35,971 nt of DNA. Source: Terriglobia bacterium (GTDB lineage Bacteria > Acidobacteriota > UBA6911). The notes below the pieces were generated by a model. That model was given only the letters and a program-made list of their open reading frames with translations, searched no databases and was not told where the DNA came from. Below are positions 690-28,270 of this stretch, in pieces; the stretch's first letter is position 1, and the number at the start of each line of letters is the position of its first letter. The DNA lies in assembly GCA_020072565.1 (NCBI GenBank), contig JAIQGI010000056.1:1-35971 (forward strand), written 5' to 3'. The position numbers were made by a program, and so were the translations under genes.

Positions 690-785
690 GATATACCTAC
701 CCTAGACGCGCAGGCCGAATTATAATCACGACAAATTCAGGTGCTCCTAATTGCAGTGTGCGAATTGCCAGTGGAGGCATTCTCC

Positions 786-3767
786 ATGATCGGCCAGACC
801 ATCTCGCACTACATGATTCTAGAAAAGATCGGACAGGGCGGAATGGGTGAGGTATTTCTTGCCCATGATGCTTCTTTAAATCGAAAGGTAGCGATCAAAT
901 TCCTTTCCGAACCCCTCAGGCAGGACGAAACAGCCCGCAGGCGTTTTCTAAGAGAAGCGAGATTGGCCGCGGCTTTGGATCACCCCTACATTTGCAGCAT
1001 CCACGAAGTGGGTGAAGCCGAAGGCAAAAGCTTCATCGTCATGGAGTATGTGGAGGGTCAAACCCTAAAAGACCGTTTGGCGCAGGGACCGGTGCCATTG
1101 AAGGAGGGGATGGAGCGAGCGGTAGAAATCGCGGAGGCCCTGGCTGTCGCTCACGAAAAGGAAATTGTCCATCGGGACTTGAAACCATCAAACATCATGC
1201 TCCCTCGAACCGGCCACACAAAGGTGATGGATTTCGGTTTGGCCAAGCGTGTGGCTGGAACTGAGCAAATCGGCAGCCAGGAGACGACGCTTACCGGACT
1301 GACCAGGGAAGGCACGACAGTAGGGACTCTGCCCTATATGTCTCCGGAGCAGGTGCAGGGCAAGACGGTGGATCATCGCTCGGACCTGTTCTCATTTGGC
1401 ATCGTGATTTACGAGATGTTGACGAGTGTCAATCCTTTCAGGAAAGGCTCAGGGCTGGAGACCGCCAATGCGATCATCAAGGAGACTGCCGCGCCGGTAT
1501 CTCAACATCGCGATGAGGTGCCTCAGTCCCTCGTGGCGATCATCAGCAAATTGCTGGCCAAGGTGCCGGAAGAGCGATACCAGGGGGCGAGAGAGGTGGC
1601 GAGCGATCTGCAGAAAGTCGTTGACGAGACTTTCGGACAGCAGATTTTTATAACCAAGCCTGCATTTGCCAAGCTGAGAAAAGCCCTGACAAAACCAGCC
1701 TACTTGATTCCGCTGATTCTCGCGCTGGCGGCGGCTGCCTATTTCTCTGTGCAGGGCGTGCGCTCATATCAGAAAGCCAATTGGGCACGAGAAAAACTAT
1801 TGCCTGAGATCGAGCAACTTGCCCAGAACATTCCCTGGAACGGTGAAGGTCCGAGTGCGTGGGCGGCTTACGAGCTCGCCAACCAGGCCGAGCAATACAT
1901 TCCCGGTGATCCCCTGTTACAGCGCCTGGTACGGAGCATTTCCCGGCAGGTGAAGCTCTCCTCTGATCCAAATGGGGCGAAGGTCTATGCCAAACCCTAC
2001 GCCGGCGCCGATTCGCGTTGGCGGTATCTGGGACAGACACCGTCCGACAGCATTCGACTTCCTATTGGATTTTCGAGGATAAAACTTGAGAAAGAGGGTT
2101 ATCGAACTGTAAACGACATTGCTTGGGTTACTCCTTTTATCAGTGACAAGCTACCCTACACTCTTCCCGAAGCCGGGCGCATACCAGAGGATATGGAACT
2201 TCTGCCCGCGGCCGCGAACTGGTACCGGCTCAGCTTTGTGCCTGGAGAACTGCATTTTCCCGGTCTGCAGCATGTTGCAGGTGTACCTGTTGCCGATTTC
2301 CTGATGGACCGGCACGAGGTTACCAACAACGATTTCAAACGTTTCGTCGACAGCGGCGGATATCAGAATCCGCAGTACTGGAAGCAGCCCTTCGTGGGAA
2401 ACGGCCAGACTCTCTCGTGGAAAGATGCCATGGCGCTGTTCACGGACAAGACCGGCCGGCCCGGACCGGCGACCTGGGAAGTTGGAGATTATCCGGATGG
2501 ACAGGATGATTACCCGGTAACGGGCGTAAGCTGGTACGAAGCGGGGGCATACGCAGAGTTCGTCGGCAAACGCCTGCCGACGATTTACCACTGGGATCGC
2601 GCCGCCTTTACCTATGCCAGCGCGGAAATTGTTCCGCTGAGCAACATCAACGGGAATGGCCCCCGGCCGGTCGGGACTTCCCAGAGCATGAACCGCTTCG
2701 GGATTTACGATCTGGCCGGGAATGTGCGCGAGTGGTGCTTCAATGAAAGCACCCTTCACGGACAGCGCTTCATCCTCGGCGGCGGATGGAACGATCCCCC
2801 ATACGCTTTCAACCTTGCCTTTGCCCAAAATCCGCTCGATCGGTCCGAAACCAACGGATTCCGGTGCATGAAGTATTGGGGAGCTGAAAAAAACCAGGCA
2901 GGATTGGAAAAAAACATCGAGCTGCCTTTTCGCGATTTCTTGAGCGAGCCGAAGGTTTCCGGCGAAACCTTCGCTCTCTATCTGAAACAGTACGCTTATG
3001 ACAAAACGGCGCTCAATCCCATTGTCGAATCGGCGCAAGAGGAAAAGGATTGGATCAGGGAGAAGATCACATTTAACGCGGCCTACGGCAACGAGAGGAT
3101 GGCGGCCTATCTTTTTCTTCCAAAACAGGGCAAGCCTCCTTTTCAGACGGTGGTCTACTTTCCGGGAGCGGACGCCATACCCAGCCGTTCAAGCAAGTCC
3201 TTGGGACCAGGCTCGAGAGATTTTCTGCTGAAGAGTGGGCGCGCACTCATGTTTCCAATTTACAAGAGCACCTATGAGCGCGGCGATAACCTCGCTTACG
3301 TCAATCCAGATGAAACGATCTTCTACAAGGAACACATCATCATGTGGGGCAAGGATTTGAGTCGGTCTATCGACTATCTGGAGACCCGCAAGGAGATCAA
3401 CGCTGATAAGATCGCATACTATGGATTTAGTTGGGGCGGCGGCATAGCTGCCATCATGCTGGCAGTCGAGCCAAGGGTCAAAACCGGTGTGCTCGTTGTC
3501 GCCGGTCTCAGATTTGAGCGGTCGTTGCCGGAGGTGGATCCGCTGCATTATCTGCGCCGGATCAAGATACCGGTGCTGATGCTCACCGGGAAGTATGACT
3601 TCTTCTTTCCGTATGAGACTTCGCAGGTTCCCTTTTATCAGCTGCTCGGAACGCCAAAGGAGAATAAGAAGCTGATCGTACATGAAGGCAGCCACGTGGT
3701 ACCCAGGACAGAGCTCGTGAAAGAGACGCTTGCCTGGCTGGATCACTACCTGGGGACTGTGAAGTAA
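786..3767 (+). CDS. Membrane Ser/Thr protein kinase fused to PEGA, formylglycine-generating-enzyme-like and alpha/beta-hydrolase domains
   Basis: 993 residues. The ATG at 786 is chosen because GGAGG (773-777) sits 8 bases upstream and the protein then begins directly with the kinase; an upstream in-frame start at 741 adds 15 unrelated residues. Domain order: Hanks-type kinase (about 10-280) with glycine loop GQGGMGEV (16-23), VAIKF lysine, HRDLKPSN catalytic loop (from 129) and DFG (149-151), all intact; one membrane span about 306-325; a PEGA-like beta domain about 388-440; an FGE/SUMF1-type domain about 508-697 (DRHEVTN start, GVSWYEA, LAGNVREW, GGGWND, GFRC end); and a dienelactone-hydrolase/S9-like alpha/beta hydrolase about 750-993 with nucleophile motif GFSWGG (S882), D938 and H970. 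The kinase is expected in the cytoplasm and the other domains outside. Kinase-FGE fusions are known in Acidobacteria and Planctomycetes; substrate and trigger are unknown. FGE-fold domains often bind ligands rather than make formylglycine, so activity of this domain is not assured. Confidence 0.88.
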   Translation: MIGQTISHYMILEKIGQGGMGEVFLAHDASLNRKVAIKFLSEPLRQDETARRRFLREARLAAALDHPYICSIHEVGEAEGKSFIVMEYVEGQTLKDRLAQGPVPLKEGMERAVEIAEALAVAHEKEIVHRDLKPSNIMLPRTGHTKVMDFGLAKRVAGTEQIGSQETTLTGLTREGTTVGTLPYMSPEQVQGKTVDHRSDLFSFGIVIYEMLTSVNPFRKGSGLETANAIIKETAAPVSQHRDEVPQSLVAIISKLLAKVPEERYQGAREVASDLQKVVDETFGQQIFITKPAFAKLRKALTKPAYLIPLILALAAAAYFSVQGVRSYQKANWAREKLLPEIEQLAQNIPWNGEGPSAWAAYELANQAEQYIPGDPLLQRLVRSISRQVKLSSDPNGAKVYAKPYAGADSRWRYLGQTPSDSIRLPIGFSRIKLEKEGYRTVNDIAWVTPFISDKLPYTLPEAGRIPEDMELLPAAANWYRLSFVPGELHFPGLQHVAGVPVADFLMDRHEVTNNDFKRFVDSGGYQNPQYWKQPFVGNGQTLSWKDAMALFTDKTGRPGPATWEVGDYPDGQDDYPVTGVSWYEAGAYAEFVGKRLPTIYHWDRAAFTYASAEIVPLSNINGNGPRPVGTSQSMNRFGIYDLAGNVREWCFNESTLHGQRFILGGGWNDPPYAFNLAFAQNPLDRSETNGFRCMKYWGAEKNQAGLEKNIELPFRDFLSEPKVSGETFALYLKQYAYDKTALNPIVESAQEEKDWIREKITFNAAYGNERMAAYLFLPKQGKPPFQTVVYFPGADAIPSRSSKSLGPGSRDFLLKSGRALMFPIYKSTYERGDNLAYVNPDETIFYKEHIIMWGKDLSRSIDYLETRKEINADKIAYYGFSWGGGIAAIMLAVEPRVKTGVLVVAGLRFERSLPEVDPLHYLRRIKIPVLMLTGKYDFFFPYETSQVPFYQLLGTPKENKKLIVHEGSHVVPRTELVKETLAWLDHYLGTVK

Positions 3768-3998
3768 TCCATCACCGGCAGAGTGGCGCCGCCTCCATCA
3801 TGTGAGGCCGACGGTTTTCAAAATCCGGACCGATTCCTGAACATCGCAGGTACCTACACCCTCGTGTCGGCGTACGCCCGAAATGGGACTGCGGCATTTC
3901 TCTTCTATTACTGCGCCATATTTGACCCGCTTTGCGCTGGCCCCCAGACCCTGAGGCAGGTGCAATTGCGAAAATTCTCGATTTCCTCAAAATTCTGC
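3768..3998. other. Intergenic, no gene seen
   Basis: Between the kinase fusion stop and the promoter of the next operon. I see no supported gene, no strong hairpin with a T tract and no repeat. Base composition turns AT-rich toward 3990, where the promoter begins. Confidence 0.5.
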
Positions 3999-4027
3999 TT
4001 GACATGCGTTATATCTAACAATATAAT
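3999..4027 (+). promoter_or_regulatory. Perfect sigma70-type promoter
   Basis: TTGACA (3999-4004), 17-base spacer, TATAAT (4022-4027): both hexamers match the housekeeping consensus exactly with the ideal spacing. The start of transcription is expected near 4034, about 59 bases before the ATG at 4093. The promoter is overlaid by the operator-like repeats annotated separately, as would be expected for a strong promoter kept under repression. Confidence 0.85.
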
Positions 4028-4061
4028 CGTTTCGAATAACAATTTAATAGTTATATGTAAC
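4008..4061. promoter_or_regulatory. Three phased operator-like palindromes GTT-N6-AAC
   Basis: Three 12-base dyads lie at 4008-4019 (GTTATATCTAAC), 4029-4040 (GTTTCGAATAAC) and 4050-4061 (GTTATATGTAAC). Their centres are exactly 21 bases apart, i.e. two helical turns, so bound proteins would sit on one face of the DNA. The first lies in the spacer between -35 and -10, the second at the expected transcription start and the third in the leader. The XRE regulator encoded by the same operon is the obvious candidate ligand (inference). Confidence 0.65.
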
Positions 4062-4092
4062 CAAGCCTACTCTCCTGAAAGGAGCGGCATCG

Positions 4093-4467
4093 ATGCACGA
4101 GAGAATGATGTTAATCCTGTGGATAGGAATTGTCGGCGTGCTTGTGGGCGTCACCATGGCGCTCCTTGGATTCCATGGACCCGTCCCGGCTTTGATTACT
4201 TCAGTCAGCGGCGGGTGGATCGGGGTGGCCATTGCCGCAAAGCTCAGCAAAGGTGTCCGGGATGAAATGGTGGTGCGGGTGGAACACATCAGCGCATATT
4301 ACGCATTCAACGCGACACTTTACTTTATCTTCGTGCTGATAGGGGTGCGTACATTCTCAAATTTGACATTGGGCGTCGGTGATTTATTGCTTACCTTGGT
4401 GCTCTTCATGTGTATCTCTTACGTGCTCCTCAAGTACGTTCTCCTGAGACGGGGTAAGGCGGAATGA
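4093..4467 (+). CDS. Small four-helix membrane protein (DUF2178-like)
   Basis: 124 residues, strongly hydrophobic, with about four membrane spans: roughly 7-27, 33-50, 70-90 and 95-117. A short loop after span 2 ([15 protein letters not shown]) resembles the charged 'DER...' loop of DUF2178-type membrane proteins, which often sit beside small XRE regulators in bacteria and archaea. AAGGAG lies about 8 bases before the ATG. The stop overlaps the start of the next gene (ATGA at 4464-4467), which implies translational coupling. The promoter at 3999-4027 serves both genes. Function unknown; a partner or sensor for the regulator is a reasonable inference. The family match is from memory of sequence character only. 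Confidence 0.75.
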
Positions 4468-4694
4468 AAACTCGAATCAAGGAATTCCGCGCGCGCCACG
4501 ATCTCACCCAGGCACAACTCGCCGACCAACTCGGCGTCCGCCGGGAGACCATCTCCTTTATCGAGCAGGGGAAATACAATCCTTCGCTCCGGCTGGCGCA
4601 TCGGATCGCAGTGGCTCTGAAATCGTCGCTCGACGAGCTATATATTTTCGACGAAGAAGATAATGCCGGGGCAACCCGCGATGGAGGCCCGTAA
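4464..4694 (+). CDS. XRE/Cro-family transcriptional regulator
   Basis: 76 residues, essentially one helix-turn-helix domain of the compact COG1476 type: [19 protein letters not shown], then the recognition helix region [20 protein letters not shown], then the closing helices to LDELYIF. There is no sensor domain, so it probably acts as a simple dimeric repressor. Its start overlaps the stop of the membrane protein gene by four bases. The three GTT-N6-AAC dyads over the operon promoter suggest autoregulation (inference). Recognition of the family is firm; the regulated genes beyond its own operon are unknown. Confidence 0.9.
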
Positions 4695-28085: not shown

Positions 28086-28270
28086 TGCCGCACCTTCGGC
28101 GCTCAACTATGCGCGACCTCTTAACCCCGGCCTCACGGCCGGGGCTACCATGGTGCCGTCTCTTTGAGGCTGGCTTGTAAGTCAGTGACCCGTCTCGAGC
28201 TTCGGCATGTCTCACCGCAGACTGAGGCGCGAAGCGCCGGCAGAGAGTAGCCCCGCGCGTAAGCGCGGGG
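28086..28270. repeat. Composite dispersed hairpin repeat, copy 2
   Basis: One unit has CCGCACCTTCGGCGCTC (from 28089) and CCCCGGCCTCACGGCCGGGG (28125-28144) followed by CTACC...TGCCG. A second unit, in inverted order, has GGCGCGAAGCGCC (28227-28239), CGGCAGAGAGTAG and CCCCGCGCGTAAGCGCGGGG (28251-28270). The two large stems share the pattern CCCCG-stem-CGGGGCTAC. No gene starts inside. It lies just past the 3' end of the respiratory operon. Confidence 0.65.

Follow-up and report, generated by a model that had tools for sequence, protein, structure and literature searches.

A consensus promoter overlaid by three 21-bp-phased dyads: a probable autoregulated CylR1/CylR2-like module in a Terriglobia genome

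Why should a promoter that fits the consensus exactly be overlaid by three evenly spaced palindromes, and which protein would bind them? The question is raised by positions 3999 to 4061 of a 35,971-nucleotide stretch of DNA from a Terriglobia bacterium, which is called the window here. On the forward strand, a -35 element TTGACA (3999-4004) is followed by a spacer of 17 nt (4005-4021) and a -10 element TATAAT (4022-4027). This promoter matches the consensus at 12 of 12 positions, and it is the only one in the scanned stretch to do so. Three GTT-N6-AAC dyads, to which no strand is assigned, accompany it: operator 1 (GTTATATCTAAC, 4008-4019) in the -35/-10 spacer, operator 2 (GTTTCGAATAAC, 4029-4040) over the inferred transcription start, and operator 3 (GTTATATGTAAC, 4050-4061) downstream of the start. 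Their centres at 4013.5, 4034.5 and 4055.5 are spaced by exactly 21 bp, and all three sites fall between the -35 element and about +27. Outside the GTT and AAC arms the dyads are imperfect palindromes, with 5/6, 3/6 and 5/6 paired positions in operators 1, 2 and 3, respectively. An earlier note on this DNA had described both the exact consensus and the three dyads, and its coordinates proved correct to the base.

A chance origin of the array was rejected. A pair of GTT-N6-AAC sites at a distance of 21 bp is found a single time in the 7.46-Mb genome, namely in this array, and the reversed pattern, which served as a control, gave 0 matches in the same genome. When the 36-kb window was scanned for triples of any trimer dyad XYZ-Nk-rc(XYZ), with k from 0 to 15 and a period of 10 to 32, the array was again the sole hit. 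No comparable triple appeared in a total of 4,500 shuffles (0/3000 for positions 3981-4092 and 0/1500 for 3768-4092). Among the 396 genomes of the phylum the GTT-N6-AAC triple has one further occurrence (locus L110, around 1500-1555; G264:C9:17731-17784). There the 21-bp period comes from heptad repeats, seven codons being 21 bp, and we consider this triple coincidental because the repeat region looks coding. The case is a warning for pattern scans.

The array precedes a two-gene operon on the same strand. A Shine-Dalgarno sequence, AGGAG (4080-4084, +), lies 8 nt ahead of the ATG of a small membrane protein of 124 aa (4093-4467, +), which is followed by an XRE/HTH_3 regulator of 76 aa with a CylR2-like fold (4464-4694, +; HTH_3 score 58 bits). 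The two reading frames share a 4-nt ATGA stop/start overlap, in keeping with the previously claimed coupling to the regulator; such an overlap is common in homologous operons (26 of 76 scorable loci). The AlphaFold model of the membrane protein (pLDDT 92) has four helices, at residues 2-24, 30-51, 58-89 and 95-120. In an alignment of 43 relatives, the loop that follows helix 2 carries an invariant D57-E58, and beyond this DE pair the membrane proteins of the family have almost nothing in common. The description of the protein as DUF2178-like holds for part of the family, since 18 of the 43 relatives match DUF2178 at E<=0.01, but the window protein itself stays below the Pfam threshold (14.9 bits, gathering cut-off 22.8). 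A fold search with it returned neither a significant match nor a known receptor fold. The regulator, modelled with a pLDDT of 89, carries an HTH_3 domain only and no LytTR DNA-binding domain, and its recognition motif R26-R27-E28-T29 is invariant in 33 aligned regulators. The window operon thus shows the gene order of the RRET-type family, with the membrane gene immediately ahead of an XRE gene that encodes RRET, and it also shares the 21-bp-phased operators on the promoter. Its immediate neighbours are an esterase-like gene and, directly upstream of the promoter (741-3767, +), a 1008-aa fusion of Ser/Thr kinase, PEGA, FGE-sulfatase and alpha/beta hydrolase; neither is a lantibiotic operon.

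A scan of species genomes for homologous operons gave 80 loci, mostly archaeal, with a few in Latescibacterota, Dehalococcoidia and others. In 68 of the 76 scorable loci a small ORF stands directly before the XRE gene, and mostly it encodes a clear membrane protein. For 70 operons we counted all trimer dyads with gaps of 0 to 18, 1216 in total, in 120 bp around the start, the start sites of the relatives being picked by a simple rule. The top dyad in this unbiased count was GTT-N10-AAC, present in 43 of the 70 loci where shuffles gave an expectation of 2.2. The dyads ranked next derive from this motif, either as fragments of it or through its repetition (AAC-N5-GTT reflects the 21-bp period), and the family operator has a consensus of about aTGTTAgAAATATaTAACA. 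It is found upstream in 30 of 51 archaeal loci (0-6 in control stretches) and in 13 of 19 bacterial loci (0-1 in control stretches). The spacing of the scored sites is dominated by 21 bp (41 pairs), followed by 42 bp (10), 16 bp (8) and 20 bp (6). Eight loci from Dehalococcoidia/Chloroflexota, most of them Dehalococcoidia (L022, L028, L038, L050, L064, L071, L074 and L078) have the same operator repeated at 16 bp rather than 21, which puts successive sites off one helix face. No site above 7 bits was found in 20 of the 70 loci, the window among them; in some of these the start may be wrong, the contig may end, or the operator may have diverged. The window and the loci L009, L010 and L109 were left out of the family matrix, and scores on the loci that did enter it are not independent, since one and the same pattern had picked out the sites from which it was made.

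How the array of the window relates to this operator is best seen in its nearest relatives, L010 from an Acidobacterium and L109 from the Latescibacterota group, whose XRE proteins are 83% (over the alignment) and 82% identical to that of the window, respectively. From TTGACA up to and including the third site, the three sequences need no gap in their alignment. If the first T of TTGACA is position 1, all three score best as a triple in the register 6-21, 27-42 and 48-63; they have TAAC in common at 39-42 and 60-63, and AAC arms stand at the index of the window three times in L010 and twice in L109. Both relatives have a full GTT-N10-AAC at 27-42, the GTT of which is the end of their -10 element, TATGTT. 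The window has TATAAT in its place, which makes the -10 perfect and removes the N10 GTT arm, and its GTT lies four bases further in at all three sites. In the N10 register of the window (4004-4019, 4025-4040 and 4046-4061, the second of which overlaps the -10) the left arms are degenerate, reading ATG, AAT and AAT, so that the GTT-N10-AAC spacing itself is absent. TTGAC(A/G) and the 17-nt spacing also occur in L010, L109, L009 and L089; the latter two are more distant and retain TTGACA-N17-TAT..., their sites being located at 20-35 and 41-56.

The alignment of homologous operons that the earlier note had recommended therefore gave a divided answer. The 21-bp phasing, the overlap with the promoter and most AAC arms are kept, but not the N6 pairing. 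Orthologous operons without the dyads had been named as evidence against the proposal, and for the N6 spacing they do lack them, carrying GTT-N10-AAC instead. N6 dyads were accordingly discarded as a conserved family motif, as N6 matches in relatives often lie inside N10 sites. Judging from these comparisons, conservation extends to promoter strength, to the phasing and to the overlap with the -10, and the window alone has the N6 arm spacing in a phased array. The view of the dyads as candidate operators phased on the core promoter is supported.

Which bases are contacted is a separate matter. The functional unit may be the N10 operator of the family, of which the window would retain the AAC arms and the overlapping -35/-10 bases, the N6 pairing being a by-product of diverged 21-bp tandem units. 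We give this possibility slightly less than an even chance. It would account for the AAC arms found at the same index in L010 and L109, and the family matrix favours the N10 register. Under this matrix the window sites score only 0.5, -10 and 0.3 bits, and the middle sites of L010 and L109 24-26, which speaks against the explanation of the operon as an autoregulated module. With a matrix that excludes the window subgroup and a background of window composition, two of the three best matches in the 36 kb lie at 4046 and 4004, in favour of that explanation; if the background is made AT-rich, other positions of the 36 kb outscore these sites. Against a mere by-product, however, all three N6 GTT arms are perfect despite differing interiors, the second base of the arm is a T, which the family matrix rarely has at this position (4%), and not one shuffle produced a triple. 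This alternative concerns the contacted bases and can hold alongside the explanation of the operon as an autoregulated module.

The natural candidate for the binding protein is the regulator of the operon itself, as had been suggested before. It is likely the ligand of the array, because the operator tracks the membrane-protein/XRE pair across archaea and bacteria and because each of the 11 genomes chosen has a double operator at the operon, while all of them together have just two more such places. These genomes were chosen for strong double sites, and the test thus speaks to exclusivity, not to frequency. As the double site is nearly confined to the operon, the regulator appears to be dedicated to its own operon. 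In the genome of the window we found no second double site of either the N6 or the N10 type, and hence no regulon was seen. One N10 double in another genome of the same family (GTTA-N8-TAAC, 21 bp; L112, G013:C194:34379-34415) lies just upstream of an ECF-sigma-like gene with no XRE gene nearby, and it was set aside as an operator of the module on account of this neighbour. That some other HTH protein of the genome, which has two more XRE proteins with 41-45% identity, binds the sites in place of the regulator is highly improbable, given that the operator travels with the gene pair and has its double form at the operon.

Taken together, we propose, with a probability of roughly 80%, that the operon is an autoregulated CylR1/CylR2-like module, in which the repressor would act on three cooperative operators and the membrane protein would relay a signal. 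We regard it as all but certain that this is a small switch that regulates itself and is related to a sensor/repressor pair known from bacteria. A strong promoter of the sigma-70 type would drive the gene of the four-helix membrane protein together with that of the 76-aa CylR2-type repressor, whose translation would be coupled to it. Repressor dimers would sit on the same face of the DNA at all three operators, presumably cooperatively, because the centres are 21 bp, that is two turns, apart. With the -35/-10 spacer, the region of the -10 and the start, and the first transcribed bases all covered, RNA polymerase would be excluded and the operon would hold itself at a low level. It is the position of the sites that suggests autorepression by the XRE protein. 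By analogy with CylR1, the membrane protein would relay a signal from the membrane or envelope and free the promoter of the repressor, resulting in a burst of expression. Such a combination of a strong promoter with a tight repressor made by the operon itself lends itself naturally to switching.

The closest described system consists of the repressor CylR2 and the membrane protein CylR1, which has three predicted helices and is required for induction of the CylR2-repressed promoter (PMC3709268). CylR2 of Enterococcus faecalis (1utx) has the same fold as the window regulator (phmmer E 3e-9, 39% identity, Foldseek TM 0.87), which is likewise a single-domain HTH of the CylR2 type, and in both systems a small HTH regulator is encoded with a small membrane protein. 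They differ in the number of helices (three predicted in CylR1, four modelled here), in the recognition motif (SRQT in CylR2, RRET here) and in their targets. CylR1/CylR2 control a divergent lantibiotic operon with overlapping promoters; no target operon was seen here, where the array overlies the module's own promoter. The closest solved structure is DR_2454 of Deinococcus radiodurans (PDB 9k3w; E 4e-13, TM 0.92-0.93), for which a literature search of limited reach found no functional paper. LytTR systems (HdrRM, BrsRM) are also autoregulated two-gene operons of membrane protein and regulator in bacteria and archaea, and their 9-bp repeats with 12 bp between them have a period of about 21 bp (PMC6193735). 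However, they employ a LytTR activator on direct repeats upstream of the -35, whereas the window has an HTH_3 protein and inverted repeats on the core promoter.

Instead of a sensor, the membrane protein could be an effector, for instance a toxin-like or stress protein, limited by the XRE protein as in toxin-antitoxin autoregulation. The order of the genes, membrane protein first and regulator second with translational coupling, would suit this role, as would the missing fold match to a known receptor. We nevertheless consider it unlikely, since CylR1 is reported to be necessary for induction by a peptide signal (PMC3709268) and LytTR systems couple a regulator with a membrane inhibitor (PMC6193735). 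Less probable still is an activator-repressor switch of the kind formed by the controller (C) proteins of restriction-modification systems, with stimulation through one of the sites at low dose, repression through the others at high dose, and bistability. C.AhdI, C.PvuII and C.BclI are, like the window regulator, small HTH_3 proteins; as dimers they use two cooperative tandem operators at their own promoter for both activation and repression (PMC3695507), and in Foldseek C.BclI and C.AhdI, too, come out close to the regulator. C proteins, however, activate and repress R-M genes, and no R-M gene was seen beside the operon. Moreover, an activator would contact RNA polymerase from beyond the upstream side of the -35, where no site lies, and the promoter of the window is already a full consensus.

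Close relatives of the window module are rare. Besides its own genome, a membrane protein of this type was found in 1 of 149 searched genomes, and a similar XRE protein is present in 5 of the 396 genomes of the phylum, its own included. Viral contigs contained only weak relatives (42%). The patchy spread suggests horizontal transfer. One Latescibacterota genome (G407) has two paralogous copies of the module (L008 and L009), the regulators of which are 90% and 83% identical to that of the window. More broadly, and with somewhat less than even confidence, we suggest a cross-domain, mostly archaeal family of membrane-sensor/HTH-repressor switches that would be defined by 21-bp-phased GTT-N10-AAC arrays on the core promoter; the window would have re-registered to the 12-bp GTT-N6-AAC, freeing TATAAT and keeping the phasing. 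As the loci show, a small module of two genes, the best-studied relative of which governs a peptide-sensing circuit, is common in archaea and occurs scattered in bacteria. Its clear operator offers a way into the question of what the membrane proteins, unstudied so far, respond to, and the module would be a naturally occurring instance of a single type of operator at work on the core promoters of bacteria and archaea alike. Elsewhere in the window, an Acido-Lenti-1 RNA lies at 28225-28270 on the reverse strand (56 bits, cut-off 37).
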